From Isoetes taiwanensis (lineage: Eukaryota > Streptophyta > Lycopodiopsida > Isoetales > Isoetaceae): DNA of 64,000 nt. Below are positions 22,000 through 63,900 of the stretch, piece by piece. The position numbers were made by a program, and so were the translations under genes. Below the pieces are notes generated by a model, which saw only the letters and a list, made by a program, of their open reading frames with translations, was not told where the DNA came from and ran no database searches. Positions within the stretch are counted from its first letter, which is position 1; each line of letters begins with the position of its first letter. Location of the stretch: NCBI GenBank assembly GCA_021234155.1, contig JAJEKV010000033.1:8298635-8362634 (forward strand), written 5' to 3'.

Positions 22000-24900
22000 T
22001 TAATTGATCGAGAGGAAGAAGATGTCGGTGGGTTGGTGGACAAACCACTGTGGTAATCCAAGAATAAGGAAAACCCCATGGTAGCGCATCAGCTAAAACC
22101 CCACAGCGTGACGGCCCGTAAGAAGATCGCTCGAGCCCCTCCTAAGTATTGTCACGACTCGACCGCAATGGGGCTTGTTGCGGGAATGTAAAAAATCAAG
22201 AGCAGAGGAGATAGACCGACAGTTTGGGGCTTACAATGGAAGATGTAAGGGAGCTGCACGAAATGGCTTTGGTGAGGCGTAATGAAGCGCTATAGTGAAG
22301 AATGGCATGATTGCAGGAGAAAGAACAACGCCGAGGAGATAGACTGTAAGTTCGGCAAGGATAAAAAGGGGTAAGTAATTCCAATCGATTTTTGTACCGA
22401 TGGTAAACACGCAGGGGCTGGAAAATTGTGGAAACATGGATTCCACCGTAAGCATAATGAAAATAAAAGATTTAACTAACGGGAAATGTGGCAATACTTT
22501 TTAGAAAGAATTATAAGACCCTGCAGGCTTTCCCATCGGATTAAAAAAGGAGTCCCAAATAAATCCAGTAGCGTAAAGCAGAGTAGAAGAGGCCTTGAAT
22601 TCCTCGCCTCTCTAAAAAACTTGTCCGCCAATCTAGAATAGCTTCAAGCGTGAAACAGTATCAAAACCGTATCATGGCAATCTTAAAGTAACAAGAGATA
22701 AACCCTCAAGGCATAATGTGAATATGGAAAAATTTAATTTCAAAGGCGGTGGTGGGATTATTTACTGGAGGTTTTGACTACTGGAAACTACAAAACTGCT
22801 CATTCAAAGGCATCTTGATGCTCTAAATATGCAGTAGCCCAGAGCATCAAAGCTATTGGGATAATTTTTTTCCTAATATTATTTGATGATAAAGATAGTT
22901 TGGGAGTAGATTTCGCTGGGAATTTGTGTTATATCAATACTATACCCGTGTTTCACCCTGGATAAATTGTCCTGGATGTTAAACTTCCTTGTTGGCTTGA
23001 GATAGAACGGCTCCCAATGGATATGCTTGACTCAGAATTTTAATTGCCATAGCAAAGAACCTGGGGACATACATAACTCATTCATTGCAAAGGGGCCAAG
23101 GATTTGTGGGCATTACAAAGAAGATGGAAGGCATTCCACAATTCCACTCTCGTCTTGAGGACATACTATTCCTTATTTAAGTTAAGACTCATAAAACGGA
23201 TGGGAGATTAGAAGGATGTTTACAATGGAAATTATGGTCCTAAAGATTGTTTTGTATTGAGAGAGTCACAAGGCAAATGTCAAAAAGCAAACAAAAAAGA
23301 CAACCAAGCCGCAGACGACAATGTCAAAGTAGCGGATGAAACCAAGAATAGAGATAAATGGGGCAAAAAGGGAAAGGATCATCTAAATCCGGTGAAATGG
23401 AATGTGATGTTTTTCACCATCTAAAGGAAACCCCAGAATCGACAAGAAGCAAGAGCGGGAGGTAAACATCGAAAAATAGAAAGGAACGGTGAATGAGGAT
23501 GGTGAATTAAAATACAACCAAACACGTAAAATGGTGGCAGAATTAAAAATCGATCAGAAAGAGGTTGCCTAATACAGAGGTATCATAAAAATCTCACAGT
23601 CATAACTATTCCAACAAAGTAGAAACCGTGAGAGAATCCCAAATGAGGAAGAATCAATTGAGTATATGGCAAAGAGAATATCAAAGTCGCTAATGAGGAG
23701 TTTCCAAACATATAACAATGGATGGGTTTGATTTGCCAATGGATGAAAAATATAGATCTCATTGATGGAATGCCAAGAAAAGAGGGTTATACCAAGATTG
23801 GGAGAAACAGCTATGAGACAACACCATCCAATCAATCAAAATGTGCTCTAATGGAATATAAAAATCCTTAGCCGGAATATGGGGTAAAATCCTCCTCCTG
23901 AGGCCAAGCGCGTGAGGGTTATCTCTAGCGTTGCAAAAAATTTCGGGATATCGTTTGTTTTCGAGGGAACATAAATGTAAGAAGGAAGAAGTTGGGGTCC
24001 TGCTTAACTTACTTGGAAAAGATTATATGGGTAAGCGGAACTTGAAGTCATGTATCGTTTGTTTTCCTAGTGAAGAAGTTGGGGGCTTAACTTCTAGTGT
24101 CGTCTAGGAACTTTTATTGCATGGAGAAAACAATTGAAACTTCTATCGAATATACAGATAATTTTGGGAGGTGCGCAATAGTAACTTGGTATGCTCATGG
24201 TAAAAAAGTGGGAGTGATAAATATTTATGCACATAATTGCCGCACAAAGAGCTTCCTTATGGGGCCAATGTGAAGAATGCATGAAAAACTATGACAGAGA
24301 TACAGTGGATTGCGGTTGGGATTTTAATATGGTAGAAAGTAGTAAAATGATAGATATGGAGGTGGATCAAGTTGTGCATGGATTTGAAAGGAACAATGGT
24401 CGAGCATGCTTAATGAATTGGGATTCACCTGAACTATTGAGGAGGAGGCTTCACATGGTGTAATGGTTGGATTGGCGATGGCGGGGCATATGCACGCACG
24501 GCCAGTGCTATGTAAGCTCGTCTTGCAAGAAAAAAACATGTCACATGCACTGTCAGAATCTTCAGGGAGAACTCTATTTTCAGATCATAATTGCAGATTA
24601 TATGCTCCTCTAGAGTTAGTACCTCTAAACCATTAAAGGCGATCTAATTGAACCCCAATTCCTCGAAGGATCACGATTTTTAATGATCAATATAGCGAGA
24701 TTTGGACGTAAGCTAGTAAATAAGCAGGGGAATGGAAGCAATGATTAAGTCTTTAGCAAAAGAATTAAAAATTTTGCTAAGGTGTGGGGGTCGTAATATA
24801 AGGGTGGTGAGGAAAATGTCTTATTGAGTCACTCTACAGAATTGATAGAGCTTAGAAGAACTGATATACTAGGGTGAAAAGGGAAAAAATAATTTCGAGA

Positions 24901-25130
24901 AAATTAAGAGAATAGAACAAATCAAAATTAAACAAGCTAAAGTTAAAGCGGACTCCATATGGATCAAGGAAGGTGACAAATGTCTGGGTTTCTTTTTAGA
25001 GTTGCAAAGGAGAGGGAAACAAGCAGCCATATTGTCCTCCGACGGTGGAGGATGGATCCATTATCCGAAATCCACATTCTCTTGTGCAATGGGTGATTGA
25101 CTTCTTCAAAAATCTTTGTATCCAATTCCA
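22000..25130 (+). mobile_element. LINE 1 (copy A), 3'-truncated
   Basis: Plus-strand L1-type LINE. ORF1 traces (about 22,030-23,380) include the counterpart of the DUF4283-like segment that is clearer in unit B. The endonuclease region (about 23,850-24,600) and the linker into the reverse transcriptase (about 24,720-25,100) are recognisable only in broken frames. The element stops before the RT catalytic core, where it meets LINE 2 in opposite orientation. It has more frame breaks than copy B, many at CAG/CTG positions. Confidence 0.75.
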
Positions 25131-26870
25131 TTAACATCTTATCTTGATGTGCATGTTTGACTTTTTTTTCTTGTCGGGCCATTTTGCAATACTTCTTCAA
25201 GCCACAAGCATACGGTATCCACTTGCTCTTGCTTCTTTTAGTTCCCGATCAAACCAGCATTCCTAGGTCAGCTTGCCATGTCCACCACCGATTTCCCATA
25301 TACTGGCTATTACACTTGTTACTTTCATGATTATTTAGCACTCGTCGCCTTCATTATGTACATTAGCAAAGGAAATAATGTAATGGATATCTGGGCTTCA
25401 ATCTCACTTTGAAATCGTTCCTTTATGTCCAGATCTTATAATCAAGTCTTGAAGGTGCTTCCTTACCATTTTGGGTTTAATACCCAATTCAAAAATGAAT
25501 GCAAGCATGATCAGTCTCAGGATGGAAAACATCTATCTCAAAGTTCGAGTCATCCAAAGCATGCAAGATGCTTCCAATTAAGTAATCTACTCTGAGAATA
25601 TGCAAATCGACTGCATTTTCACCTCGATGGGTAAAAGCCCCGAGGAGTTCGAGGGCAAACCCATTGAAATGATCAAGTCCAATGATTCGCAGAGATGTAA
25701 TAAGTGGTGTCTTTCATTAACTTCCCCCCATGGTCGCTCCTCCTAAGAAAAATGTTCTATTGAACAGACTTCCGTTAGCGGGTGATCCGTCAACATATAT
25801 CGTGATTTGCAATCCACATCCAACAGCTAAAAATCTCCAACAAGCAAAACATTTGAATTGTTCTTCCATCCGATAGAAAAGAACCAAGTCTGAATATTGC
25901 TACCAATTGTTGTTCTTTATCACTGGGAGGGATGTAACATCCTACTACTATCGAGATCTTTATCACTTGTGATAATGGAAGAGGCTATACGGATTGCCAC
26001 AAAGTTCTTATCTTCACCCATCCTCCCACTCCAAGCTAGCAAAACTTAAGACCGCTATGCACATAACAAGCTATGCCCCTTGCGTCGTGGTCCCCGTGTT
26101 GGTTTCTTGTTCCGCATCGAAAAAAGATTGATAACCCTTGACACTTGGTATCTGTGTGTTTTTCGTGGTTCCCATGTTTCTACCGCCAAAGAAAATGTCC
26201 ATCGGCGACTATCTAGCATGTTAATATAATGGTTTAATCCTTTTTGGACCTCTAACATTTAGGCATCCAAAGCTAATTCGCGGGCAGCCCCAATTTTTGC
26301 ACGGGGAATTCCCCTATTCCTTTTGATCTCTTATGATAACCTTTGCCCATTCCGCGTAAACAACCCACTTTCCTTCTTCTCTTGCTTCTTTAATGTCAAT
26401 CGCCGGGATGGTTTGCAAGTTGGAAGCCAAGTTAAATCTTCACACACCCGTAAACTGATCCCTTTAAATTTGGCCCCATCTTTGGAGCATTTCTACTCTT
26501 CTTGATTCATCTCTACATTTTACTAAAATATGTCTATGCTTGCCTTCAATCTTTTTCATTCTCCATGCATCTAGCACGCATGATTTGTCAACTGAGTTGT
26601 TCATCACAAAATTTATTTGTGACCATCCTAACTTTGTCTTCCTTTTCCCCTCCGAATGTCGATTATTCTAACTTGGGGAGGCCCTTTTCTTTCTCTCTTT
26701 CTTCTTCCAAAATTATACGCACTTCTTCTTTAAATTTGCTTCTGGTCCTATTCCCCGAACTTCTTTCTTTTCAATTCTTCTACGTCTTTGTTAATGCCTC
26801 TCACCGTGCTTTGAAGCCGGGCAACTCTATCCAATAAAGTTCTTACCGTAACTTCTACGTACCCCTTAAC
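25130..26870 (-). mobile_element. LINE 2 (copy A), minus strand, truncated
   Basis: Counterpart of 34,490-36,240. Minus-strand frames include the endonuclease start (KGLNHYINMLDSRRWTF near 26,220) and the post-endonuclease linker (frame at 24,964-25,200 reading KKYCKMARQEKK). ORF1-like sequence lies near 26,330-26,800. No RT core is present. Confidence 0.7.
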
Positions 26871-26879
26871 CATGGTAAT

Positions 26880-29600
26880 AAAAGCTCCTCCCGTGCTGAT
26901 TTAGATGGGACGAAGGCATCCGGATCTCTTTCTGGTTCGCCGCGACGCCCCTCCGACCATCGTGACTCTACCGGACCTCTCGGGATGCAAACCGAAGGCA
27001 TGGCTTTCTATCCTCAACAAACCCCCAGCTGGCAACACCGACAAAGCCGGGCTCCGCGCGGCCTCTCCAACCCACCACCCGCCTCCTAAGTCAAGATGGT
27101 GGGTCCTCGTTGTCCTCAAGGCCTTCATGGGCAACCGAGAAATCAGAGTAGAGCCAGGCCTCAACCATGTGGGTGGGGTTTATGTGTTGTTTGTAGTGTG
27201 CCACTTTTACCCCGCTCCGCAGCATGGTGGTCCCGCAGCTTCCCAGAAACAAGAGTCCAAGTACCCCTCACCTTATCCCTACGGCACTGGGCACCGGACG
27301 CACCTATGTAAGGCCTACTGCCCAAATAACTTAGCCAACCGGGCTCTCTTTGTCCTTCCAACAAGCCCCCGAGTCGCTATGGAGCCCACGCCACAACAGG
27401 CTTTCGCGCGCGGAGCCGAGTGTCGCCCATGCCGCCACCTCGGAAATAAACAATGTCTATCGAGGGTCGCGAGATGTCAGCAGGGGCATGAATCCCCGCC
27501 TCCGCAACAAGATCCCGATATGGAACCGGTGGGTCAACCCCAAGTGCGTACGCCAAAAATGCCTTCCGCAACCTCTCTAAGTCGCTCCAAGTCGCCAAAA
27601 GACACCATTGGGCCCCACACTCGACCCATACGTAAGAACGGGCTCCACTAGTGCCCGAACAAAATGTGATTTGGTGGCCCCATCATCTACAGCCTCGGCC
27701 TGTGGACTATTGTTTTGCATTAGCGCATGATGCCTTCCAACTGCAAGGGTCACCAAGGCTTAATGGATGCATCCCAATACATTGAAGATGTAATTCCACC
27801 CCCGTGTACTTAGGCTGGGTGCGTAACCCTCTACTAGCCCCGATAAGTGAAGGAGGTGCCGATGACATGAGGAGGATATGAGGGACCACCTTGTCTTCAC
27901 AAAGTTGACATGCATGTCCGTTAGCTCGGGGTATCGTGTCTAGGCATCTAGGTGTGCCTCGCATGCCCCTCCCCGGTGTATGGGCCAAGAGGTCCACATC
28001 ATCCACATAGATGAGTCACGGATGACTGGTGCAAGAGTATCTGATCCACCCCATTGCGGTAGCCCGGGCTTCCAGCCCCGGTGTAAGTCAAAGAGTGTAG
28101 GTGAGAGGACAATGGCCTTTGCCTAACTCCAATGCTCTGCCCCGGCAAGCGGCGTCGCTTAGGTTGCATGCGGCTGTCGATGATACGATGCGGTACGCTG
28201 CGTTTAGCGGATCATAGGAACCCATGGTGCAATCTTAAGCACAACTTTTCGAGATGCGTGTCGAGAAAGCTTTTGCAAAGTCCACAAAACAACGATGCAA
28301 AGTCCTCGGCGGTTCCTGGCGTCACCGATCATGGCCACGATTGTGAAGATGTGATCAATGAAGTCGAATGTTGGGGTCGGAAGCACGCACTGGGTAAGTG
28401 CTCGACTTCGGCGCCTACGCCCATGCGATTTTCGGTATTCGAGAATGCGCACAACTTGGCAAACGGTGACCATGATGGTTGGTGCGGGCTGGGCGGTGTA
28501 CCACATACCAGTTCCGGGACAATACGCGTGTGTGAATTGATTGGAAACCTCTTGCGGTAGCCACTGGTGAACAACAATCTGACAAGGGCACCATGAACAT
28601 CGCCCATGAACAGCACTGGATTTGAGGCCGTCAAGTCTGGCGCTGCCCAGCCTTCGATCGCCCATTTGCGACCCTCTTAAACATCTTTACGTGATTACGG
28701 TGATTGGGCCATATTCGCGGGGAGAACATCTGTCGAGTGTTCGGGGATCATAAAAGGCTGTTCGCAGTCTTTGCTCCCATTGCCCGTGATGTTCCGGTAA
28801 GAAACGTGGCGGCGCAGTACCTAGCGCCCGAGAAAGAGGATATTCGGTGAAACGTCGATAGGCGAACATTTCTCCCTTGGCTACCTTGCCTTTGTTTCAG
28901 CGAGAGAGAGCGAAGTAGTAATGGTGGCTGATGGCACGGTTTCAGCGTCATCCTGATCCGCGGTGATGGGGGCGGTGCGTTTCTTCATACACTCGACATC
29001 AAACCATCATTCTGGCGGGAAGGTTAGCGACCTCTACGATCTCACGAAGTGGGGGAGGTCTCCCAAAGCACATGCATGATTCACGAGGAGACTCCAGCAG
29101 ATTAATTAGGTTTCGCTCGGTAGTAGTCCGTAGCGGGAGGCTTCGCGAGCATGTCCGTAAAGCCTCGCCTCATAATCAAAGCGCAGAAGTGCGGCAGAAA
29201 TCTTCGAGGTATGCAGCGGTATTGACTTCGCATAGAGTGGGGTATTTGAAATTGACCTCCTGCGTCCGTATCGAATGTAGACGCGTGAAAATGGTGACAA
29301 AGGTGCATCTGCGCCAACCACTATGACGCAATCCACGCGACACTAGTTCGCCCGTAGTGATTGTCACATGCACCCGAAATTGTACGGTGGGAAGAGATTG
29401 TGGTAGGCCATTGCATATGGCGAGTCAAAGATACACATCCGGAGCAATTGTTCACCGCTGGCAGACCGGGCCGCCATCCGAAAGTGCCGGTGGTGCAAGC
29501 CGCTTTTCCGGGCGGACGCAACCGCAAAGACGCCATCCGCGAGGGGTCGGCGTGGCTGTTCCTGTTCCACCCCGCCCACGCATGGAGGAAGCGTTTGTTC
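26880..29600 (-). mobile_element. LINE 3 (copy A), endonuclease-RT-zinc finger
   Basis: Counterpart of 36,250-39,390 without the insertion. On the minus strand the catalytic box reads DDVDLLAHT near 28,000, the RT motif A region lies near 28,260-28,290, and endonuclease-like frames lie around 29,100-29,560. The target sequence caagagtccaa is single and uninterrupted at 27,250-27,260, so this copy shows the empty site. The 248-codon plus-strand frame here is antisense shadow. Confidence 0.7.
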
Positions 29601-30146
29601 ATATTTGAACAGATAATGCTAATGCAGATCCGCATTCATCACGATGGGTCTATAGATTTATTGAGAATTTGTAGCTATATATCATGTTGTGTTTGATGCT
29701 TAGTGGAATTATTCAAGTTCGATTCCTGAACGCAGCTCATTTTAATAGTTTAAGAGCATTGTTCTTGCAACTGTCATGCAACTAAGGTTGACCATTATTG
29801 TGTATTCAATGCATAAGACTATTTTGTTGGGCGTTGATAGTTTCTAGTTCTCGCCCGAAGGGGCTGGGGATTTAGTGATAAGGATGGACTTAGCGATAAG
29901 GATGGTCTTTATACAAGCCAATGCCCCACGCAGATCCTCGGAAGTCGACCCAAATGCAACTCTCAAGTGGGGGTGTCGATGAATTCAGCGTGGCATAATG
30001 AGTAATTGCAAGATAGCCAGTCTCTATGAAAGAGAAAAAATTAAAAACCCTCATTAAATGGAATCTTAAATGCTAAAAGAATGAATGATATATATTATAT
30101 GATGATAGAAATATATATGAATGCCACGACGGGCACAAGAAAAACG

Positions 30147-30241
30147 AATTTGTTGTGGAAGTTATATTTGTTTTTGAAAAACGAATTTATTGTGGAAGTT
30201 GTATTTGTTGTGGAAAACGAATTTGTTGTGGAAGTTGATAT
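30147..30241. repeat. Minisatellite in unit A
   Basis: Three copies of a unit of about 30-40 bp containing aaaacgaatttgttgtggaa and gtt with variable tails. It is matched by the same array at about 39,934-40,030 in unit B. Confidence 0.8.
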
Positions 30242-30619
30242 TTTAAGTTTGAATCTTCATTGACATGCAAAATAAGATGAATTGAATTTTCATAGACATG
30301 CAATACAATGATGATATCGGTGTAGTATGTCCAATTAATTTAGGATACTTAAGTTCAATTTAAACTAGAATATTCAAAATACACCACTTTTCTTCCATTG
30401 TAAAGATTGAATTCAAAATGCAATGTCTCCAAACTCCCCTCTTTCCAATCTTTTTACATTAGATGATACACAATGCAATTTGCTTACAAGGCAATAATCT
30501 ACTACATATATACATCACATTCAATACAATTTGGAACATAGGTATTGGAAAGTAAATCTTTAGTACAACCGTGGGTTGTAAAATAAGCAAGAAAAGTTGT
30601 AGCCCTGGTAGGTCTTCTT

Positions 30620-31250
30620 CTATTGGTAGAATTTATAGGTTGAGGCAGCCACCACGATATTTCTAAAGCCTCCAATTGTGGCAACGGTCATAAGGATGCA
30701 ACCTAATATAATGCATATACACAAATAAATTCAAACCTCTACTTAGATTGAGTAGTGAGAAACTTGATATATTGTATATAGTATTAAGAGTGAGAGGAAC
30801 GTACCCAATTTGCCAACCATGACAACCCCATAACCCTAGGTTTATAGATAGCTAACCACATTATGCACCTTAATTGATAAATAACTCAAATTATTAAAAT
30901 ATTCAATGGACGTGCCAATGAAAAGAAAATATCAAACTTACGAAGTATGTGGTTGGTGCAAATGCAAATCCTCCAAAGGGTAAACAAGTCTCCCAAAGAA
31001 AGGTATTGTCATCCCACAAAACATTGTAAACCCTAGAAAAGAGAAAGAAAGAATGAATGAATGATTTTTACCATCCACGAGAGAGTGGCGGTTTAAGTAG
31101 AGGTGAAGTTTCATAAAATAATAAAAAACTAATTTACTTACCCATATATATAGTCCTAGTAATAAGCCATAATGGTCTACCCTTTGAAGCTTAACCTTCT
31201 TAACAAGTCTCGCCTCTCCAAGCATATCAAACACGAGGTATTGCATAGAT
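30620..31250 (-). pseudogene. Orphan exons 5-8 of the amino acid transporter
   Basis: Duplicated 3' end of the transporter gene at 40.4-42.8 kb. Exon equivalents are 31,142-31,250, 30,942-31,032, about 30,805-30,868 and 30,620-30,718. No exons 1-4 or promoter exist upstream: the duplication junction at 31,374 cuts within intron 4 and LINE 1 of unit B follows. Exon 6 is frameshifted (the equivalent of [10 protein letters not shown] is altered). The CAG acceptors of exons 7 and 8 read cacctta and tacac in plus orientation instead of the ctgca/ctgcc seen in unit B. The stop is TAG rather than TAA. Either the orphan decayed or these sites are miscalled; even with perfect sequence it could not make a full transporter. 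Confidence 0.88.
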
Positions 31251-31377
31251 CTGAAGAAATAAATACAAGAATTATATATCAAGTGCAAGTTAACAATAAT
31301 CTATATTTGAAACATATAGAAAGTTTAAGTATGAATGAATAAAAGAAAATATAACTAGGATCATCAAGTAGACCGTA

Positions 31378-34300
31378 ATAACAAAAAGAGGTTTAATTGA
31401 TCGAGGAAGAAGATGTCTGGCGCAGGAGGGCGGCCAGCCGGGTAATCAGGGGGAAAACCCCATGGTAAGTGGCAGCATCGGCGAAAACCCCACAGGCGGC
31501 CGGCTCGTAAGAAGATCGGCTCGAGACTCTGAGCGGGTATTTAGGATATTCTTTGCATTCGGAACAATGTGCTACTGTTATGGAAAGAAAAAAATCAAGA
31601 GCGTAGAGATAGACCGAGGCAATGTTTGGGGCTTCTGATAAAAAGATGTATGGGAGGAATGAAATGGCTTTGGTGAGGCAGAATGAAGCGGCTATAGTGA
31701 AGAATGGCATGATTAGGGAGAAAGAACAACGCTTATTTGGAGGAGATAGACCAAGTTCGGCAAGGATAAAAAGGGGTAAGCATTCCACTGATTTTTGTAC
31801 TGATGGTAAACACGAGGGGCTGGAAAATTGTGGAAACATGGATTCTACCGTGAAGTGTAATGAAAATAAAAAGATTTAACCACTTTGGAAACAGGGCAAT
31901 ACTTTAGAAAGAATTATAAGACCGGTTTTCAATGGATTAAGAAAAGGAGTCCCAAATAAACCCGTAGCAAAAAAGTAGAGAAGAGGGCCTTGAATTCTCC
32001 CCCGCCCCTCTAAAACTTGTCCGCTAACACGGAATAGCTTCTTCAAGCAGCAGTATCAAACCGTAATATGGCAATCTTAAAGTAAAGGAGATAAACCACT
32101 CAAGGCATATCGGGAATATGGAAAATTTAATTTCAAAGGCAGTGGTGGGATTATTTACGGAGGTTTTTGGATTACAGGAAACTACAAAATCAGCTCACAA
32201 GGCATCTTGATGCTCTAAATATGCCGCAGTTCCAGAGCATCAAAGCTATTGGGAGTAATTTTTTCCTAATATTATTTGATGATGAGAAAGCGGTGGAAAA
32301 GATAGTTTCCAGGGGAGTAGACCGCTTCGCGGGGGAATTTGTGTTATATCAATACTATACTCCAGGTTTCACCCCGGATAAATTGTCTGGCCGTTAAACT
32401 TCCTTGTTGGCTTTGAGATAGAATGACCCCAATGGATATGCTTGATTTCAGAATTTTTTAATTGCCATAGCAAAGAACACGGGGACATACATAACTCATT
32501 CGATTGCAAAGGGGCCAAGGATTTGTGTGGGCATTACAAATAAAGGGAAGGCATTCCACAATTCACTCAGAGTGAAGTGGGACATACTATTCCTTATTTG
32601 TTAAGACTCATAAACGGATGGGAGATTAGAAGGATGTTCCCCACAATGGAAATTAAGGGTCTGAAAGATTGTTTTGTATTCGGAGAGAGTCACAAGGCAA
32701 ATGTCAAAATAGCAACAGAAAAGACAACCAAAGCCGACAATGTCAAAGCGGTATATGAAAAACAATAGAGATAAATGGGGCAAAAAAGGGAAAGGATCAT
32801 CTAAATCCGGTGAAATGGAATGTGATGTTTTTCACCATCTAAAGGAAACCCGTAATCGACAAGAAGCAAGAGGGGAGGTAAACATCGAAAAATAGAAAGG
32901 AAATGTGAATGAGGATGGGTGGGCCACAAGACAACACGTAAAATGGTGTGGTAATTAAAAAATCGATGAGAAAGAGGTTTGCTAATACGGGAGGTATCAT
33001 AAAAATCTCGTGTCATAACTATTCCAATGTAATAGAAACCGAGAGAATCACAATGAGGAAGAATCAATTGAGTATATGGCAAAGAGAATATCAAGTCGCT
33101 AATGAGGAGTTTCCAGCATAACAACAGATGGGGGATTTGCCAATGGATGAAAATATAGATCTCATTGATGGAATGCCAAGAAAAAGAGGGTTATACCAAG
33201 ATTGGGAGAATGAGGCATATGAGACAACACCATCCAATCAATCAAATGTGCTCTCTAATGGAATATAAAATCCTTAGCTGGGAATATGGGGTAAAATCCT
33301 CCGAGGCCAAAGGCAAGAGGGTTATCTCTAGCGTTGAAAAAATTTCTCCGGATATCGTTGTTTTTCAGGAACATAAATGTAAGAAGGAAGAAGTTGGGGT
33401 CCCGCTTTTAACTTACTTGGAAAAGATTATATGGGTATCATGTCGCCTAGTGGCAATTGGCGGGTTCTAGCGGAACTTTTATTGCATGGAGAAAACAATT
33501 GAAACTTCTATTAATATACAGATAATTTTTGGGAGGTGCGAATAGTAACTTTGGTATGCTCATGGTAAAAAGTGGGAGGATAAATATTTATGCACATAAT
33601 CAAGCCGGACAAAAGAGCTTCCTTTATGGGCCAATGTGAAGAAACGGATGAAAAACTTTGACAGAGATACACGGTGGATTGGTTGGGGACTTTAATATGG
33701 TAGAAAGTAGTAATGATAGATATGGAGGTGGGACTGAAGTTGTGCATGGATTTGAAAGGGAACAATGGCTGAGCATGCTTAATGAACTGGGATTCATGGA
33801 ACTACAGGGAGATCCAGGCTTCACATGGTGTAATGGTTGGATTGGCGAAGGCAGGGCATATGCACGGCACGACAGGTGCTATGTAAGCTCTCAGGTCTTG
33901 CAAGAAAAAACATGTCACTGCATCATTGCAGTAATCTTCTAGAGAACTCTATTTCAGATCATAATTCGCAGATTATATGCTCCTCTAGAGTTAGTACCTC
34001 TAAACCATTAAAGAGCAGTCTTGATTTGAACGTTCAAGGATGCAGATTTTAATGATCAATAGTGGCAGTTGGATACTGCTAGTAGAAACAAACAGGGAAT
34101 GGAAGCAATGATTGCGTCTCTAGCAGCAATTAAAAATTTTGCTAAGGTGTGGGGTCGTAATAAGGTGGCCGAGGAAAATTCTCTATTGGAGTCACTTTAC
34201 AAAGAATTGATAGAGCTTAGAAGAACAGGTACTGGCTCAGGCGAAAGGGAAAAAATAGTTCTAGAGAAAATTAAGAGAATAGAACAAATCAAAATTCAAC

Positions 34301-34490
34301 AAGCTAAAGTTAAAGCAGGACTGACATGGATCAAGGAAGGTGACAAATGTATGTGTTTCTTTTTAGAGTTGTAAAAGCAGAGGAAACAAGCAGCCATATT
34401 GTCCTCAGTGCGGTGGAGGATGGATCCATTATCCGAAATCCACATTCTCTTGTACAATGGGTGACAGCTTCTTCCAAAATCTCTTTGTAT
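31378..34490 (+). mobile_element. LINE 1 (copy B), ORF1 + endonuclease + RT start
   Basis: This is the clearer copy of a plus-strand L1-type LINE. ORF1 starts near 31,407 (MSGAGGRPAG, then broken). At 32,167-32,397 it reads SNFFLILFDDEKAVEKIVSR and onward, the DUF4283 core of plant LINE ORF1, continuing in shifted frames to MGHTIPYLLRLINGWEIRRM and a CFVFGESHKANV segment that resembles a CCHC knuckle with missing cysteines. The endonuclease begins near 33,252 (MEYKILSWEYG, IVVFQEHKCKKEE) and continues to GDPGFTWCNGW at about 33,820. The RT linker (LTWIKEGDKCMCFFLEL) ends near 34,374. Sequence identity to a LINE ends near 34,490, before any RT catalytic motif, so the copy cannot retrotranspose itself. 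Confidence 0.85.
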
Positions 34491-36240
34491 CCAATTCCAT
34501 TAACATCTTATCTTGATGTGCATGTTCCCAGCTTTTTTTCTTGTCTCGGGCCATTTTGCAATACTTCTTCAAGCCTGCTACAGTATCCACTTGCTTTCTT
34601 GCTTCTTTTAGTTCCTGATCAAACCAGGCATTCCTAGGTCTGCTTGCCATGTCCACCTACCGATTTCCCCATATACACACACTTGTTACTAACAGCATTA
34701 TTTTATTGCGCCGTCAGATGTACATTAGCAAAGGAAATAAGGAATGGATCTGGGCTTCAATCTCACTTTGAAATCGTTCCTTTTATCCGGTCTTATAATC
34801 AAGTCTTGGAAGGTGCTTCCCTTCAGACCATTTTGGGCTTAATACCCAATTCAAAATGAATGCAAGCATGATGGGTCTCGTGGATGGAAAACATCTATCT
34901 CAAAGTTCGAGCTGTCCAAAGCATGCAATACTTCCAATTAAGTAATCTACTAGGGAATATGCAACCGACCGCATTTTCACCTCGATAGGTAAAGCCCTGA
35001 GGAGTTCCAGGGGCAAAACCCATTGAAAATGATCAAGTCCAATGATTCGCAGATGTAATAAGTGGTGTCTGCTTCATTAACTTCCCCATGGTCGCCTCCT
35101 CCTAAGAAAATGTTCTATTGGTCAGATTACTTCCAGATTATGTGTGATCCGTCAACATATATCCGATTTTTTGCAATCCAATTGGCCCAACAGCTTAAAA
35201 TCTCCAACAAGCAAAACATTTGAATTGTTCTTCCATCCGGATAGAAAAGAACCAAGTCCGAATATTGCGCCAATTGTTGTTTCTCCGATTCTTTGGAGGG
35301 ATGTAACATCCTACTACTATCAGATCTTTATCACTTGTGATAATGGAAGAGGCTATAACGGATTGCCACAAAGTTCTTATCTTCTACATCCTCCCACTCC
35401 AAGCTAGCAAACTTGCTAAGATCCATCATGCACATAACAAGCTATGCCCCGCACGGTCTCCCAGGTGTTGGTTTCTTGTCCCAGATCGAAAAGATTGATA
35501 ACCCTTGACACTTGGTATCTGTGTGTTTCGTGGTTCCCATGTTTCTACCATAAAAGAAAATGTCCATCGACGACTATCTAGCATGTTAATATAATGGTTT
35601 AATCCTTTTGGACCTCTAACATTTAGGCATCCAAAGCTAATTGGCCAGCCCCAATTGCTCGCCTCGGGAATTCCTATTCCTTTCGATCTCTTATGATAAC
35701 TCGCCCATTCCTCAGAACAACCCACTTTCCTTCTTCTCTTGCTTCTTTAACTTTGTCTCAATCTTTCAGCGGGATGGTTTGCAAGTTACACCAAGTTAAA
35801 TCTTCACACACCCGAAATCTGATCCCTTTAAATTTGGCCCTGCTTTGAGCATTTCTACTCTTTGCCGATTCATCTCTACATTTTACTAAAATATGTCTAT
35901 GCTTGCCTTCAATCTTTTTCCTGTTCTCCATGCATCTAGCACGCATGATTTGTCAACGGAGTTGTTCATCACAAAATTTATTTGTGACCATCCTAACATC
36001 TTCCTTTTCCCCTCCGGAATGTCGATTATTCTAACTTGGGGAGGCCCTTTTCTGTTTCTCTCTCTTTCTTCTTCCAAAATTATGCGCACTTCTTCTTTTA
36101 AATTTGCTTACGGTCCTATTCCTGAACTTCTTTCTTTCCAATTCTTCTACCCGTCTTTGTTAATGCCTCACCGTGCTTTGAAGGGCAACTCTATCAATAA
36201 AGTTCTTACAGTGTAACTTCTACCTGTACCCCTCGAACCA
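34490..36240 (-). mobile_element. LINE 2 (copy B), minus strand, truncated
   Basis: A second, different L1-type LINE on the minus strand. From its 5' side: ORF1 end (frames at 36,089-35,758, charged, with VRIIDIPEGKRKM and HRHILVKCRDESAK), then the endonuclease start WPISFGCLNVRGPKGLNHYI and VETWEPRNTQ at 35,650-35,540, broken endonuclease frames to about 34,700, and the linker RPRNAWFDQELKEARKQVD at about 34,640. It stops where it collides tail to tail with LINE 1 near 34,490; no RT core is present. Frame breaks are numerous. Confidence 0.78.
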
Positions 36241-36249
36241 TGGTAATAA

Positions 36250-39200
36250 GCTCCTCCCAGGCTGATTTAGATGGGACGAAGGCATCCGGATCTGCTGCTG
36301 GTTCGCTGCGACGTCCTCCAGCCATCGTGGCTACTGGACCTCTGGACAGCTCTGGAAGGCATGGCTTTCATCCTCAACAAATCCCGGCGGGCAACAACGA
36401 CAAAGCCTGTCTGGTAGCTCTCTCAACCCACCGACCCGTCTCAAGCCGAAGATGGTGGGCCCTGTGCTCTGCGCTTCTTCATGGGCGGCCCGAGAAGCCG
36501 CCGAGGGTAAAATTTGTGGGCCTCGAACCATGGGTGGGGTTTATGTGTTGTTTGTAGTGTGCCACCTTTACACGTTCGAAGCATGGTGGTTTGAGCTTCC
36601 CTGTGAAACAAGAGTCCAATGTTGTCATTAAAATGACGCTGCATTAAAACGCGTTTGGGACGTATTTTTTTGAAAAATACGTATTTTATACAATACGTAC
36701 TTAAAAGCTTAAAATACGTTTTTTTTTTTAAAATTGAGAAAATGCTTAAATATAACAAATTATGCAATATAAACATAAACAATTGTTGGAAAGTTGGTTA
36801 GCATGTTTGTTTTTGCTATTTGGGAGGCCCAGTTCGAATCCTAGTGGGTGCAAATTGAGTCCTGCTTTGAGAAAAGCGGTTCATTTTTTTGAAAAAGCAT
36901 TAAGCGTATTTTTAAAAATACGGTACCGTATGTCTGACGTGCGAGAATGCGTATGGATTTTTAAAAATATCGTATTTGAACAACATTTTGCAAGAGTCCA
37001 AGTACCCCTCGGCCCTATCCCCGGGCGCTGTGTGCACACCGGACGCACTATGTGCCGCTTTACGCTCCAGTAGCGCTAGCCAGCCATCGGGCTCTCTTGT
37101 CCTTCCAACAAGCCCCGAGTCGCGCGGGCTCACGCATACAAAAAGCGTAAAGCCAAGTGCGGGGGCCAGAGTGTCGCCTAAGGCGGCCACCTTCCTCGAA
37201 ATAAACAATGTGTCTATCGAGGGCGCATCTTTGCAGGGGCATGAATCACATCCCTCGCAACAAGATCCGATATGGGGCGAGGGCTTGACCCCCAGGGTAC
37301 CCGTCAAAAATGCCTTCGAACCTGCTCTAAGTCGTTCCAAGTCGCCAAAGACACCATTGGGCCCCACACCTCTAACCCATCTGAAGAACTGGCTCCACTA
37401 GTGCTCGGAACAAATGTGGTGGTGGCCCCGATCCATACTGACTTCGGTCTTTTGACTATTGTTTTGCATTGCGTACATGCCTTCCAACTCTGGGGTCACC
37501 AAGGCGGGAATGGATGCATCCCAATACATTGAAGATGGAAATTCCACCCCTGTGTACTTGTAGTGGGTGTAACCTCTACCACCCCGATAAGTGAGCCGGA
37601 GAGTCTTTGGATGACATGAGGAGGATATGAGGACCACCTTAGTCTTGGCCAAAGGGTTGACATGCATGTCCGTTTGCCGAGAATGTGTGTCCAGTGGCAT
37701 CTAGGTGTGCGCGATGCCCCCTGACGTGTATGGGCCAAGAGGTCCACATCATCCACATAGATGAGCCACGGGATGACCCGGTGCAAGAGCGATACCGTCC
37801 CCATTGGCAAACAAGCCGGGCTTCCAACCGTCCAATGTAAAGTCCAAAGAGTGTAGGTGAGAGAGGAAAACCTTGCCTAACTCCAATGCTCGCCGCAAAC
37901 GGTATCCGATTGCATGTGGCCGTGCGGCTCCGTCAGACGGCCTGCATTAATCGCTGCTCGGCAGATCCATAGAGCCCCATGGTGCAATCCCGCCCACAAC
38001 TTTTCCCGGTCGCGCGGTCGAAAGCTTTTGCAAAGTCCACAAACAACAAGCATAACGTCCTCCTCGGCCGGTTCCGCTGTCCTCGATCATGCGGTACGAT
38101 TGTGAAGATGTGATCAATGGTGAATGTCGGGCTCGGAAGCTGCTGGTAAGTGCCGACTTCATTTGCCTGCGCCCATCTGGTTACCTGGCATTGCTCGAGA
38201 ATGCGCGCACAACTTGGCAAAACCGGTGACCATGATGGTTGATGGTGAATTGGGTCGATGGATGGTTCCCCGCCTTATAGTTGGGGACAACCACGCTTGT
38301 GGTCACAGGACGAAACCCTCTTCGGCGCCACGTTGAACAATGCGGCAGGGGCCGGGCACCATGGGCTGTCCCCGCCTAATTTGAGCAACTCCGTTTTTGG
38401 GCGATCCAAGTCTGCCGCCTTCCCATTAGCCGCCTACTTGACCCTCGCCGACATCTTCTTACGTGATTACGGCGATTGGGCCGTATTCGGGGGCACATCC
38501 GTCCGTGTTCGGGGGATCATAAAGCTATTCGCCAGGTGTGTACTGCCCCATTGCGCCCGTGATGTTCCCGTGAAAGGCCGTGGTACCCAGCGCCGCGAAG
38601 AAGTTCGCAAGGCGTCCGGTAGGCGAACATTTCTCCTTCGTGCCTTGCGTGCCTTGCCTTTGTTTCCTTGAGGAAGGCACCGTAATGGCTGGTGGCCCGA
38701 GCTGGCGGTCCTGCGATCCGCGATGAAGGGCTGGTCGCGGCGTTCCGTTCCTTACCCGACATCCGAACTTGCATACGTGCAGCGGGGTTAGCGACCTCTC
38801 TCCGATCACGAAGAGTAGAGTCTCCCAAAGCACTACATGCGCTGCCCGGTTAGAGGCTCCAGCGTTGGTCGGTTCTTTTGCTCCGGTACGTGTGGTCATG
38901 AAGCTGTCGAGGAGAATACGAGCATGTCGGCGTAAAGCTCAGCCTACTCATAATCCAGCGCGGGTCGTCTTTCGAGGGGCCGTAAAGCGGTGCCGGGCCC
39001 GGCTTCACATAAGTGGGAGGTGATCAGAGTGGCCTCCTCGTCCGGCTTGTCCGTACGTGGCGTGAAAATGGTGACAAGGTGTACATCCTGGCAACCACTA
39101 TGACATAATCCACGACACTGGGTTCGCCCGCCCGTGATTGTCACGTGCGCAAGTGTACCCGTGGGAAGAGGGGCCATTGTGGTAGGCCATTGCATTATGA

Positions 39201-39390
39201 GCGAGGTCAAAGATACCGCGACATCGAGCAATTGTTAATACGCCGGCGGGTGACCTGGCCGTCATCGAGTGCAGGTGCAAAGGCTGCCTCTGCGGGGCGC
39301 AAAGCTGCGCCATCCGTCATCGTCGAGGTCAACCGCATGGCTGTTCCACCCAGTATCCACGCATGGAGGAAGATTGTTCATGTTTGAACA
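36250..39390 (-). mobile_element. LINE 3 (copy B), endonuclease-RT-zinc finger, interrupted
   Basis: Third LINE, minus strand, more GC-rich than LINE 1 and 2. An endonuclease segment near 39,060-39,120 resembles the VDYVIV motif seen before the catalytic SDH of such nucleases. RT motif A (FVDFAKAFDRA) lies at about 38,017-38,047 and the catalytic YVDD box (LIYVDDVDLLAHT) at about 37,742-37,770. Downstream, LCRCCPPGFVEDESHAFQSC at about 36,340-36,400 resembles the zinc-binding domain that follows plant LINE RTs. A 371-bp insertion at 36,620-36,990 splits it. Many frameshifts. The type (RTE- or CR1-like rather than L1) is inferred from motif spelling. Confidence 0.8.
36620..36990. mobile_element. 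Short non-autonomous insertion with 11-bp target duplication
   Basis: Present in unit B only. The flanks are caagagtccaa at 36,609-36,619 and again at 36,991-37,001, while unit A has one copy (27,250-27,260). The ends carry a short inverted repeat (aatgttgt at 36,618-36,625, acaacatt at 36,980-36,987). Internally tggttagcatg (36,795-36,805) and gttcgaatcc (36,832-36,841) match RNA polymerase III A and B boxes at tRNA-like spacing, suggesting a tRNA-derived SINE. The AT-rich arms contain repeated aaatacgt/acgtattt. The inverted ends and target-site length would also suit a Mutator-type MITE; I cannot decide between these. Confidence 0.85.
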
Positions 39391-39933
39391 GATAATGCTA
39401 ATGCAATCAATTCATCCGCGATGGGTCTATAGATTTCTGCCGCAGAATTTGTAGCTATATATCATGTTGTGTTTGATGCTTAGTGGAATTATTCAGGTTC
39501 GATTCCTGGAACGCAGCTCATTTTAATAGTTTAGAGCATTGTTCTTGCAACTGTCATGCAACTAAGGTTGACCATTATTGTGTATTCAATGCATAAGACT
39601 ATTTTTGTTGGGCGTTGATATTCTAGTTTCGGCCCGGCGGGGGATTTAGTGATAAGGATGGACTTAGCGATAAGGATGGGTCTTTATACAAGCCAATGCC
39701 CTACGCATCCCTGGAAGTCGACCCAAATGCAACTCTCAAGTGGGGGGTGTCGATGAAGCATTCTGTGGCATAATGAGTAATTGCAAGATAGATTGTCTCT
39801 ATGAAAGAGAAAAAAATTAAAACCCTCATTAAATGGAATCTTAAATGCTAAAAGAATGAATGATCGATATATTATATTATATTATATGATGATAGAAATA
39901 TATAGAATGCCACGACGGGCACAAGAAAAAACG

Positions 39934-40030
39934 AATTTGTTGTGGAAGTTATATTTGTTTTTGAAAAAACGAATTTATTGTGGAAGTTGTATTTGTTGTG
40001 GAAAAAACGAATTTGTTGTGGAAGTTGATA
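39934..40030. repeat. Minisatellite in unit B
   Basis: Same three-copy array as at 30,147-30,241, with slightly longer A-runs. Just upstream, an AT repeat is longer in unit B (about 39,863-39,892) than in unit A (about 30,085-30,103). Confidence 0.8.
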
Positions 40031-40412
40031 TTTTAAGTTTGAATCTTCATTGACATGCAAAATAAGATGAATTGAATTTTCATAGACATGCAATACAATG
40101 ATGATATCGGTGTAGCATGTCCAATTAATTTAGGATACTTAAGTTCAATTTAAACTAGAATATTCAAAATACACCACTTTTCTTCCATTGTAAAGATTGA
40201 ATTCAAATGCAATGTCTCCAAACTCCCTCTTTCCAATCTTTACATTAGATGATACACAATGCAATTTGCTTACAAGGCAATAATCTACCACATATATACA
40301 TCACACATTCAATACAATTTGGAACATAGGTATTGGAAAGTAAATGCTGTAGTACAACTAACTGTGGGTTGTAAAATAAGCAAGAAAAGTTGTAGCCCTG
40401 GTAGGTCTTCTT

Positions 40413-52102: not shown

Positions 52103-53347
52103 TTAAGGTGAAAACAAAGTGGGAGATAGGAACATTACCGTTTCTTCTTTATGTAAATGGACAGGGAGGAAGCAAAGACCATATAGCATTTCAAATGGTT
52201 TCCAAAAACATCTTGCCAGGTCATATTCAAGCAACAGACTGGATTCCCTGGTGTCACTCTCATCGTCAAAGTCTTCCTCCGCTTTTGTAATAGCAATAAC
52301 AATGCTGTCATCTTTTCCCTGAAGAACCATTGGGTTCCACCTTTCTCGGAAATAGTCAAGAATCCAATCTGCTTTATTTGTTTGTCTCTCAACAAACTCA
52401 ATCATTGCTGCCATATCAAATGCAGTCATCAATGTCCACTTCAGAGCACCATTCGATGCACTTCCACTCCAAAGTTGAATTTCTGGCAGTGTTAGAGCAA
52501 GGGCAACTAATACCACTCTATTTCTGTTTTTCAACATGTATAATGAATAGTCTCTGTCCTCATCTAATGGAGAATCAAATGTCATCCAATTGAAGTGATT
52601 CTGCTCGTAATCATAAGTTGCCACTCGCATATTGTCTTGGCTGAAAAATACTTTAGAGGTACCAATAAGTTCATTGTGTGGGACGCCATCCCAATCCAAT
52701 GTTCCTCCCTTCCTCCATAAATTCTCCCTTGAATGGAACACCTCTGCATGAAATACATCTGCATCTGATTCTGGTCTTACAGCCAAAATCGTATAATCAC
52801 CTGATAACTTATCTACTATCATGTCTGTTGGAATAAAATCATCGGAAGGATTAGGTATAGTCTTCCATGAATTGATCAATGGATTTCCAACCTCATATTT
52901 ACGCTCATCTTGCATTTCAGAAATGCATACTAGTCCCCCATCAGTGACAAAAACAAGACCTGGATTATAAAAAACCAAGATTGCCGTTTTGCTAATATGA
53001 AAATGTTCAATGCTAGGATATATACGATCAGGCGCAAATATAGACTCCCATGAAGGGTCATACTCTGCATGATAAAATATATATTTTTGGGCCTGGCAAA
53101 GCCTGGAATGAAGCTTCTTAAAGTACTGAGAAAACAAAATTGTATCCCTCCAATTCTTGCATACTAGGCAAAACCTAACAAGATCCCTCACCTGTAGAAA
53201 CGCTAAGATGCGCATGCCAACCTCAGGGGGAAGCAGGTCCCATTCCATTATTGCAGGAACATGCTTGTGAATCCCCTTCAAGCGTTTGTACACCTGCCAT
53301 TTTGTAGGTTTAGGTCTTCTTTTGCCCTGTGATCGCTTCTCGTGCAT
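52103..53347 (-). CDS. F-box protein, single exon, 414 residues
   Basis: Intact intronless frame from ATG at 53,347 to the stop at 52,103. After a basic N-terminus (MHEKRSQGKRRPKPTKWQVY), an F-box spans about residues 35-78: WDLLPPEVGMRILAFLQVRD, then LVRFCLVCKNWRDTI, with the LP, the V..W and the spacing of the family. F-box proteins bind Skp1/ASK through this segment and select substrates for SCF ubiquitin ligases. The remaining 330 residues (for example HISKTAILVFYNPGLVFVTD, PIPNPSDDF-like turns, NRNRVVLVALALTLPEIQLW) look like the beta-propeller region of plant F-box/kelch proteins, without clear kelch repeats. No frame breaks despite abundant CAG/CTG codons, unlike the repeats nearby. 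The substrate is unknown. Confidence 0.9.
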   Translation of the reverse strand: MHEKRSQGKRRPKPTKWQVYKRLKGIHKHVPAIMEWDLLPPEVGMRILAFLQVRDLVRFCLVCKNWRDTILFSQYFKKLHSRLCQAQKYIFYHAEYDPSWESIFAPDRIYPSIEHFHISKTAILVFYNPGLVFVTDGGLVCISEMQDERKYEVGNPLINSWKTIPNPSDDFIPTDMIVDKLSGDYTILAVRPESDADVFHAEVFHSRENLWRKGGTLDWDGVPHNELIGTSKVFFSQDNMRVATYDYEQNHFNWMTFDSPLDEDRDYSLYMLKNRNRVVLVALALTLPEIQLWSGSASNGALKWTLMTAFDMAAMIEFVERQTNKADWILDYFRERWNPMVLQGKDDSIVIAITKAEEDFDDESDTRESSLLLEYDLARCFWKPFEMLYGLCFLPVHLHKEETVMFLSPTLFSP

Positions 53348-53468
53348 TTTCGAGTATGAACTAGGCTATGGAGGAAGAAGCAGCAGGTCACAATAAATCA
53401 ATGCATATATAGGGGTATGGGCGCCCCCTTTCGCGCACTTTTAAGGAACCTCACGTACCAAAATGTCA

Positions 53469-54250: not shown

Positions 54251-54309
54251 TTTGAAGATGGCCTTTTAGAACTTGAAATAATATATAAAAAGATGGTCCA
54301 TGTGCAACC

Positions 54310-58820: not shown

Positions 58821-58829
58821 TTATTTTGT

Positions 58830-60850: not shown

Positions 60851-60858
60851 TGGAGGAG

Positions 60859-60902: not shown

Positions 60903-60921
60903 GTATTGTTAATTGAGTTGG

Positions 60922-63900
60922 TCACTTGTCTAATCTTTTGGTTATTTTAGACTTGGATGACTTACGCCATATTGCCCCGATGACTTGGTACGTTGACTTG
61001 GCTACTGATTTGCCTGCCACCTTGTCTGCTGACTTGTCAGTTGACTTGTCTGCTGACTTGGCTGTTGACTTGGCTGCCACCTTGCCTGCTGACTTGGCTA
61101 CTGATTTGCCTGCCACTTTGTCTGCTGACTTGTCTGTTGACTTGTCAGCTGACTTGGCTGTTGACTTGGCTACCACCTTGCCTGGCCGACTTGGCTACCG
61201 ATTTGGTTCGCCACTTTGTCTGGCGACTTGTCTCGTTGACTTACCTGCCGACTTGGCTATTGACTTGACCGCCACCTTGCCCTGCTGACTTGGGCTGACT
61301 GACTTACGTTGTTTTGTCTGTTTGGATTGCCGCTAGCAACATCACATTGTGCTAATATATGTGAGCAAGTCTGCAAACTTTCAAGTATGTTTTCATGGAC
61401 ATCAGCTTCCAATTCAAACATATTACATCCCACATCTTTCATTTCAAAATTGCATGAAACAACTAGGTGACTATAAACACTGCAGTCTGGCTCATATTCA
61501 AGTAGCTCATATTTGTTGTCTCCTACCAGTTTATAAAACTTGCCTGTCACAACGACTTCCCTCCTCCCAAATTTTTGGCCCCATGGGTCTTTGTAGGCCT
61601 TCTCTACAACATGCTTAGGTATAGTGCACTTTAAGATGTAGAAGTCAACCTTTTTCTTTTTGTTGTCTCGCTGGAGCAAACCACCGCAAAGTTCTCCCCT
61701 ACATCAATAATATCGATTTCCACTTTCAAGATCCCCCTCATAGATGGCCCATCCACAAGCTGCGGTATCATCTTGAATCGGTCTTAATTAAAAAAAGTCC
61801 AGCTACCTATTCTATCTTTGTTTATGCACTTAACTTGTACTTACCCAACCAACAATCATGACAAAAGCACGAAAGTAATTCATATGTGCAACTTGAGTAG
61901 CATCCTTGGAGTTTCTTGGCGATGCTATGGAATTTACTAGACCACGATAAAGTAGCACAGTCAAACCGCTCAACTCTGCTTATTTCATCAATCTTTATCT
62001 CCCAAAAGTACCTAAAAACAATTAATAGAACTTGTTACAGTTAGTAATGTTTACCACAAAGAAGACGGCGTGATTAAGTACGGTACAAAAGAGTTGGGCG
62101 TTAAAGACTTGGTACAACAGTCTTCATTAACATATGCGGTACCTATGTTTGTCGGGAATCTTTGAAGTGCTCTCGTGCGGGGAATTGAACAACATCTCGG
62201 GCATTTCTTAAAGGTTTGGAATTTCTTTTCAACATTTCATGGGTGAGTGCTCTCTTTAGAACAGCACCTGCCCCATCATGCTCCCCTGCAAGGTAACAAA
62301 CAACTATCTTTAATGTTTTGCAGATTCCAGCCTTAATGAGACATTGGAATTTACCTTTTCCATGATATGATGCAAAGTAGTTCCAATTGAATTGGAATGC
62401 GATACCTTATAAAATCTACCAAGAAAATAGAAATTTCTTGCACCCTTGAACTGAGATGAGCAGACCATCGACCACATTATATGGTTGTTGTATTTGACTT
62501 CCTTGTTGGCCAAGTAATCGGCATGCTTGTTAAGACAAGTCTTTGGACAAACAAGGTGTCATGCTCCCTATCATCCGAAATGTAAAAGTGTGTCTCCTTG
62601 ATGATATTCCTATCACCTTTGCATAATGAATTATCCTCCACCTCTTTTGCGGTTGCATGCCTATAAGTGATGTGCACAAGTATTGTGCATTGGTCATTCT
62701 CCAATGTAAGCTTTGGATTTCTTGTTGTATCTTGAAGGTATAGTTTTCAAATGAAATCAATGACCGGATACCACTTGTGTTTTTCGGGAAAGTGCCTAAA
62801 CAATCTCGAATTGTTTTGCCCGCCATCTAGCCTCATAATTATGGGGAATGAATTCAGTTAAAATATTTTTAGCATATGACATCACATCTGTTTGTTGAAT
62901 TAGTCTTGTATACCAAACTTCACAACAGGGCTTTGGAACCACCTTTGTCCCACCTTTGCCATCGGGTTCTTTTTTTGATTCATAAACCTAAAAGCAAAGC
63001 AATGATTAGTTTAATAAATCACAAAATCAAAAAAGGAAATGCACATCACCCACCCTATCAAAAGTTTTCCAATCTACTAAATGCCCTGTGACCTTGCTTA
63101 ATTCTTTTTGGACACATAGGTAACTTAGATGGGCCACAAAACAAAGTGCATTTCAAAGAACATGCAATTATGAGTATACCACTCATCCGCAATGTCCTTG
63201 GAACATACAATTGACCTCCACAAATCACTTGAAGATTTGTAGGTCTTAGTATTAGCTTCACACTTTGCTCCAAAGACCACAAAGCGAGAACAAGTACAAC
63301 TACAATCGGCACCATGAATCTTTGTATCCAACCTAATCTTGTTCGATGCTTGTCTAACATAATCTAGTCTCATATGATACACACAACAACAAGTCTCCAC
63401 GTCCTTTACTTTTTTCGAACAAATGGAGGTTTCAAATTACCTAAAAGCTGAGAATGAAACTTGAATTTTGGATATTCTTTTAGAAAACTAGCATAAAAGA
63501 ACACTGCATTAAAAGTAACAAGCACATTAGCATTGTAAACAAATGAATTATAAACTTAAAAGAATAAAACCAACCTCAGTTTCTTCCAAGAAGTGTAGAG
63601 CATGCATTATCTTCTTTCCTTTGCCAAGCCTAATCTTAATAACATGTTTCTTGCATGGTGACACTTTCGGTCCGATGAGTCCAAAATCAATTACTAATTT
63701 AGCTGTTTTTACGCTTAGTTTATCGATCCGGTTTCTTTTTGAACATTGACCATAAGCCATCACCAATTTTCTGCTTTTTTCTCCTCACGAGCTGCTGTTG
63801 TCACATATCTTCTATTCAAGTTTAGGCACTTGGAAGTTCCCAAACAATTAGTGCCTGGGACAACAGCATATACCATGGCTGAGGTCCTTGCTGTAAGTAC

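Follow-up and report, generated by a model that had tools for sequence, protein, structure and literature searches.

The question raised by this locus is whether the many differences that gather at CAG and CTG (together CWG) between its near-identical repeat copies are mutations in the DNA of Isoetes taiwanensis or errors in its sequence. The window analysed is a stretch of 64,000 nucleotides, in which an earlier note had observed such a concentration and attributed it to long-read base-calling errors at methylated cytosines. The concentration was confirmed and lies far beyond chance, and the comparisons given below make it very probable that the excess consists largely of uncorrected sequence errors in the long-read assembly of this plant.

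A 9.4-kb tandem unit, LINE-like in its 5′ part and with a transporter gene as its 3′ part, was compared across five assembled copies (A, B, C, E and F). Unit A (21980..31374) is the most damaged of the five and its tandem copy B (31375..41170) is less so; in the 3′ part of A (29283..31374) the backbone is nearly identical to those of B and F and is interrupted by short scrambled bursts. An alignment-free count gave CWG densities of 14.4, 18.8, 20.8, 27.7 and 28.2 per kb for A, B, C, E and F respectively (o/e.55,.71,.75,.90 and.96), with CG o/e at.80,.78 and.73 in A, B and C versus.62 and.68 in E and F. The longest stop-free runs of the five copies are, in the same order, 248, 161, 270, 355 and 418 aa.

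Site-by-site comparison locates these differences. In the A–B alignments, CAG/CTG were the most often differing triplets (78% of 273); next came CCG/CGG (70% of 322) and then those triplets that contain CG in another form (52–65%), with 15–42% for triplets of every other kind. Such per-triplet rates vary with aligner settings and the triplets overlap, as an artefact of aligning repetitive, gapped sequence would require; almost no credence can be given to that explanation, however, since the per-copy CWG density and the pattern search reported below are both alignment-free. With F as the yardstick and E as the clean comparator, A, B, C and E were found to have lost 226, 177, 153 and 101 of the 277 CWG sites of F, with reverse losses of 84/135, 84/184, 74/198 and 87/263. 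The loss is one-sided in A, B and C (two-sided binomial p of 3.5e-16, 8.7e-9 and 1.7e-7) and symmetric in E (p 0.34). The CWG excess over E is.45 in A,.27 in B and.19 in C, with block-bootstrap intervals that exclude zero, while outside CWG there is no excess above zero in B, one of at most.04 in C and one in A that is smaller than its CWG excess. The errors thus concentrate at CWG, the putatively modified motif.

This is not the whole of the divergence. CCG/CGG and the other CG triplets differ in every pair (47–74%), E included (48–53%), and E differs from F at 101 of 277 CWG, 40 of them with CG products, so neither E nor F is error-free. In the 3′ part of B the CWG clusters are symmetric against F (9 versus 9). 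Two of the five examples on which the earlier note relied also fall outside CWG. The first (gaagcgctatag in A, 22284..22295, plus strand; gaagcggctatag in B, 31685, plus strand, by word search) sits at a CGG present in four of the five copies, although a CAG-to-CGT change found only in A lies about ten bases upstream. In the second, likewise located by word search on the plus strand (tttactggagg in A, 22761..22771; tttacggagg in B, 32154), C, E and F read CGG and it is the CTG of A that is the odd one. Given these two examples and the CG triplets that differ in all pairs, real divergence is mixed with the errors. The third example, a putative splice acceptor (30712..30730, minus strand), is at a CWG, the plus strand reading CTG in B and E and CCG in C and F, with the site lost in A.

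The products of the lost CWG bear on real mutation, namely the C-to-T decay that silenced repeats would undergo as their methylated cytosines, in CHG and CG, are deaminated. Plants methylate cytosine in CWG as well as in CG, triplets with CG vary in every pair, as deamination would allow, and in a more divergent set of 21 copies CAG has often given rise to deamination products (CAA 52, TAG 11). In A, B and C, however, only 11/226, 13/177 and 6/153 of the lost CWG of F show the C-to-T (or G-to-A) product, whereas 90/226, 68/177 and 75/153 have become words that contain CG, compared with 24/229, 17/129 and 15/137 for the CAH/DTG controls. Altered CAG/CTG triplets acquired a CG in 171 of 402 cases versus 25/203 for CAA, 26/171 for CAC and 16/109 for CAT, and 105 of the 160 new CGs in A adjoin a CWG of F, against a background of.15. 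Nor was CG hit as much as CHG in these three copies (with CCG set apart, the CG excess relative to E is.08 in A, −.02 in B and.01 in C). Decay should also be symmetric between copies of similar age, which holds for E alone, and it does not account for an approximately twofold spread in CWG among copies of one sequence. Deamination is therefore a very unlikely source of the excess.

Biological indels were considered as well. DEMETER/ROS1-type glycosylases excise 5mC, and faulty repair after such excision could leave insertions and deletions; among 124 clean private events, indels (45) and multi-base changes (63) do exceed single substitutions (16). Excision explains neither the CG-rich products nor why loss is symmetric in E yet one-sided in the other three copies compared with F, and contigs that are otherwise 99.25% identical would have to sustain such events at a very high rate locally, all of which makes it extremely improbable. 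It should be noted that 88 of the 124 clean private events lie near neither CWG nor CG, the filter being one that discards most CWG sites.

That sequence error is the better reading is also indicated by a gene exon. An amino-acid transporter exon (41440..41600, minus strand) is broken in the window, and its counterpart on a second contig (C970; 99.25% identity to the window) is an open 81-aa frame matching positions 161–224 of the Aa_trans profile. Five of the ten difference clusters between the two are CWG lost in the window and none is CWG gained. The fourth example of the earlier note (tatgcgacat, 41443, minus strand, by word search) lies here, and at this CWG the C970 frame carries the Gly codon that the window lacks. 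The open exon, together with a CWG o/e that ranges from.55 to.96 in five copies of one unit, marks the CWG errors as specific to the assembled copy and not inherited by descent. The neighbouring transporter ORF (Aa_trans; 41625..42077, minus strand) has a 155-aa stop-free run identical in the window and in C970, and across 41601–45375 the two contigs agree without a single CWG-type difference. The low CWG of 41.6–45.4 kb is thus common to two contigs, as deamination would predict, and is genuine. Homopolymer-length differences between the contigs are compatible with native-DNA nanopore reads and are no proof of them.

An F-box gene (52103..53347, minus strand), with an open frame of 414 aa, served as an internal control. 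The earlier note, which took it to be probably unmethylated, had described its CAG/CTG as intact, and they are (30.5 CWG per kb, o/e 1.01), with no CWG bias between its alleles on two contigs (3 versus 5 of 39). Its density exceeds those of A and B, as had also been predicted; this contrast alone is confounded, because 41.2–48 kb is low in CWG too (o/e 0.53).

The same damage recurs at unrelated loci. In the 5S rDNA array, 9 of 84 copies are identical to the reference copy (itself counted), and in 57 of 60 damaged units (three were dropped for low score) one CAG reads CG in 35, and one CTG of the spacer is intact in 53. Three divergent 5S copies on another contig (C1041) carry substitutions only, unlike the damaged array, which again speaks against deamination. 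A high-copy repeat (61340..63236, minus strand) compared with another copy (L069) gave 63 difference clusters, with CWG lost from the window in 35 and gained in 1; comparison with a further copy (L070) was less one-sided (19 versus 7). Across the whole set of cluster comparisons, those of the transporter exon, the F-box gene and the 3′ part of B included, one cluster of more than 25 columns was excluded. The fifth example of the earlier note lies in this repeat (tggtcgatgg, 62465..62474, minus strand), where a base is missing from a CAG, leaving CG, when compared with the majority of copies in the genome. Its pairing with tggtcagatgg (49051, minus strand, by word search) proved sensible from minus-strand frames and from 47 exact-flank genome matches obtained by pattern search, of which 38 read CWG, 3 CCG, 5 the shortened CG and 1 CAT.

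An assembly artefact in which methylation plays no part might also be invoked here, paralogous variants having been mixed when repeats collapsed or when short reads were used for uneven polishing, given that perfect 5S units are interspersed with damaged ones and that 78 of the 124 clean private events fall in unit A. Paralogue mixing should strike all variable sites, however, and the excess sits at CWG; similar words moreover recur at unrelated loci, TCAGA becoming TCGA in both the 5S gene and the repeat at 62.47 kb. As the origin of the errors this is very unlikely, but polishing or collapse may well decide where they survive.

The signature is not genome-wide. CWG o/e is.80–1.02 at six well-scoring Copia loci,.90–1.09 at five tubulin loci and.78 when pooled over 14 random genome samples (of 16, two all-N samples being excluded), and a whole-genome loss of CWG was rejected on these values. 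The best-scoring 150 of 13,951 RVT_2 candidates, a selected list, are nearly all stop-free over the part that was matched, and open frames exceed 1,400 aa in some of them, so many transposons are unscrambled. CWG o/e and CG o/e are not anticorrelated across loci, either in the window (rho −0.10, n=32) or in random samples (rho −0.08, n=28), and cross-locus CWG density was dropped as evidence, the fall in CWG with a rise in CG being found only between copies of one sequence. A plastid-like contig (C840) was tried as yardstick for nuclear plastid insertions and was unusable as the original, since it is 34.6 kb long and its nuclear copies mostly match at 70–88%.

Taken together, the earlier interpretation was upheld in part. 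All seven words quoted in support of it were found at or near the places given, and three of its five examples are at CWG. Error in place of mutation is well supported by the unequal and one-sided loss in near-identical copies, by products other than those of deamination, by the recurrence in 5S rDNA and the high-copy repeat, and by the open exon; two examples and the density test do not carry it. The likeliest candidate for the cause is methylation acting through a nanopore basecaller. CHG cytosines, chiefly those of CWG, would carry methylation both inside the repeats and along their edge, and a basecaller trained mainly on 5mC before G would misread the shifted current at methylated CWG, often as a CG-containing word and sometimes with a base gained or lost. 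Being systematic at each site, the error would survive consensus, and polishing would repair only some copies or regions. Near-identical copies that lose CWG unequally, with CG-rich products and broken frames, are what is observed, and the F-box gene and 41.6–45.4 kb are free of such damage. The CG-creating miscalls appear to be a new detail, to be expected if the basecaller had learnt 5mC only before G. A stricter rule, that such a basecaller writes G after the methylated C of CWG and so archives spurious CGs, is put forward tentatively and is possible rather than probable.

No reliance should be placed on broken genes or old-looking repeats in this region before other reads have been consulted. 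If the error reading is right, the repeat-rich parts of such assemblies would carry a predictable bias that extends to pseudogene calls, the ages of repeats, divergence between copies, splice sites and estimates of CG depletion, and much of the apparent A–B divergence (identity of ~84–90% by segment) would be error. A copy-to-copy CWG count offers a simple alignment-free alarm for any assembly with near-identical copies. Were the CG-writing rule true, a local CWG deficit with a CG surplus between copies of one sequence would show, from the FASTA alone, at which places the sequenced plant carried CHG methylation, a fossil record legible wherever polishing failed to reach.

No description of a CHG-to-CG product pattern was found in the literature searched, which left subscription papers and most preprints outside. 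For native plant DNA, methylation has been proposed as a cause of lower basecalling accuracy, which species-specific models raise (Ferguson et al., 2022, PMC9749173); the searched main text of that paper contains neither CHG nor CHH, and neither a motif nor a spectrum of products could be found in it. Listeria genomes sequenced by ONT similarly show recurrent consensus errors from modifications outside the training set (PMC10687267), but there the organism is bacterial, the modification of a novel type and the demonstration made with amplified (demodified) DNA. There is also a close likeness to the Dcm-motif errors of Enterobacteriaceae (Wick et al., 2019, PMC6591954), where the consensus likewise goes wrong systematically at a 5mC motif whose core is CWG: with the ONT basecallers then current, ~70% of consensus errors in K. 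pneumoniae were put down to CCAGG/CCTGG, blamed on models untrained for the modification and corrected partly by polishing. The present errors differ in that they occur in a plant, affect CWG generally but only in certain copies and regions, come from a platform that we infer, and often yield products containing CG.

Two tandem copies of a 9.4-kb unit with a LINE-like 5' part and a transporter-gene 3' part, A (21980-31374) and B (31375-41170), lie in the window (C1038:8298635-8362634). A search of the genome holding it (1.66 Gb, 1110 contigs) added copy C, which also lies on C1038, upstream, as well as copies E and F on contig C970. Stop-free stretches of F match DUF4283 (E 6.5e-11), a domain associated with LINEs, and together with an Exo_endo_phos match just below the cut-off (24.3 vs 24.5 bits) fit a LINE. 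Over 4 kb downstream of B, the window and C970 are 99.25% identical. The F-box gene is present on C970 too (C970:194333-195783 vs window 52000-53450), inverted and farther from the tandem units, which suggests rearrangement between the contigs; C970 is thus either an allele or a recent duplicate.

The words quoted in the earlier note were all located, and its observation that differences concentrate at CAG/CTG (CWG) was borne out. In the A-B alignments 78% of 273 such triplets were altered, the highest value among triplets, followed by CCG/CGG (70%), the remaining CG triplets (52-65%) and other triplets lacking CG (15-42%); the differences comprise substitutions and gaps, including 298 one-base gaps. 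Five copies should have near-equal CWG density, but the values per kb were 14.4 (A), 18.8 (B), 20.8 (C), 27.7 (E) and 28.2 (F), roughly tracked by the longest stop-free runs (248, 161, 270, 355 and 418 aa). CG observed/expected (o/e) in A (.80), B (.78) and C (.73) exceeded that in E (.62) and F (.68).

From the 277 CWG sites of F, 226 were missing in A, 177 in B, 153 in C and 101 in E. Reverse losses (A 84/135, B 84/184, C 74/198, E 87/263) indicate that F is not free of error. CAH-type controls were far less one-sided, with forward and reverse values of 419/1965 and 481/2027 (A), 262/1965 and 338/2041 (B), and 258/1965 and 265/1972 (C). Using E as the baseline for real divergence and shared error, the CWG excess was.45 [.36,.55] in A,.27 [.13,.41] in B and.19 [.05,.34] in C. 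No non-CWG class rose above zero in B or beyond.04 in C; smaller excesses in A (CCG.20, other CG.08, all other.13) show that it is also generally noisier. One result does not fit the one-sided pattern: loss between B and F was symmetric in the 3' part (9 and 9).

The products at lost sites bear on mutation as an alternative. Those containing CG, shortened without CG and resulting from deamination numbered 90, 66 and 11 in A, 68, 58 and 13 in B, 75, 38 and 6 in C, and 40, 22 and 11 in E, with CG in 24/229, 17/129 and 15/137 control products (A, B, C). New CGs adjoined F's CWG sites in 105/160 (A), 77/127 (B), 90/138 (C) and 47/85 (E) cases, against a background of ~.15. With the five-copy majority as reference, CG appeared in 171/402 altered CAG/CTG, compared with CAA 25/203, CAC 26/171 and CAT 16/109.

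Among 84 5S rDNA copies from four stretches, 9 matched the reference copy exactly, a count that includes the reference. Of 60 damaged units, 57 were tallied by position. The CAG at position 39 read CG in 35 and CAG in 17, that at position 15 CAG in 19 and CGG in 14, and the CTG at position 78 was intact in 9. Counter to this pattern, the spacer CTG at position 164 was intact in 53. Three divergent copies on C1041 differ solely by substitutions and have the appearance of ordinary decay. In arrays on C13 and C907 (L035, L036, L037), perfect units stand singly or paired amid heavily altered ones; uneven polishing or unit-by-unit methylation could each suffice. Elsewhere in the assembly, C840 (34556 bases; L028, L030) is plastid-like, with GC 29% and psbA-rbcL spacing of ~7 kb, and its rbcL shares 89.5% identity over 1454 bases with an open rbcL in the nuclear-sized contig C1052 (L029); it may be own, foreign or rearranged plastid.

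Further damage was found in the 61.3-63.2 kb repeat, where comparison with copies L069, L068 and L070 gave 63, 60 and 72 difference clusters, with CWG lost in the window in 35, 32 and 19 and gained in 1, 3 and 7. A 12-base tandem repeat (TGACTTGNCTGC-like, 60958-61302) adjoins it. The exon at 41440-41600 differs from C970 by 10 clusters (CWG lost 5, gained 0; no single substitutions), and its counterpart there is an open frame of 81 aa matching Aa_trans positions 161-224 (E 1.2e-8). The control at 41601-45375 had 9 clusters, none losing or gaining CWG. The F-box gene, also a control, showed no CWG bias, in keeping with the contrast drawn in the earlier note: its alleles differ by 40 clusters over 3164 columns, and the 39 classified include 3 losses, 5 gains and 26 single substitutions.

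Other observations do not favor error throughout. Intact Copia frames are present, real deamination was seen in more divergent copies, and an anticorrelation of CWG and CG across loci was looked for and not found. CWG o/e is low (.53) at 41.2-48 kb, yet window and C970 agree over 41601-45375; because of such points the density comparison with the F-box gene, proposed in the earlier note, would mislead if used alone. The window's lowest CWG o/e values, at 6001-8000 (0.32; CG o/e 0.94) and 12001-14000 (0.27; CG o/e 0.68), come from the window copy alone and reflect error or real depletion. A ~130-base tandem repeat array with poly-T stretches and GATCACC motifs occupies 13880-16330.

The errors in the unit copies are copy-specific, centred on CWG, one-sided and CG-producing. 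They would be explained by CHG methylation in nanopore reads, called by a basecaller probably exposed to 5mC mainly before G; uneven polishing would then account for the perfect 5S units amid damaged ones and for the clean E and F. CHG errors are not addressed in the available excerpts of PMC10962732 or PMC10095996. Excerpts of PMC6591954 describe consensus errors of nanopore basecallers in the bacterial Dcm case, and those of PMC9749173 indicate that species-specific models raise accuracy in plants.
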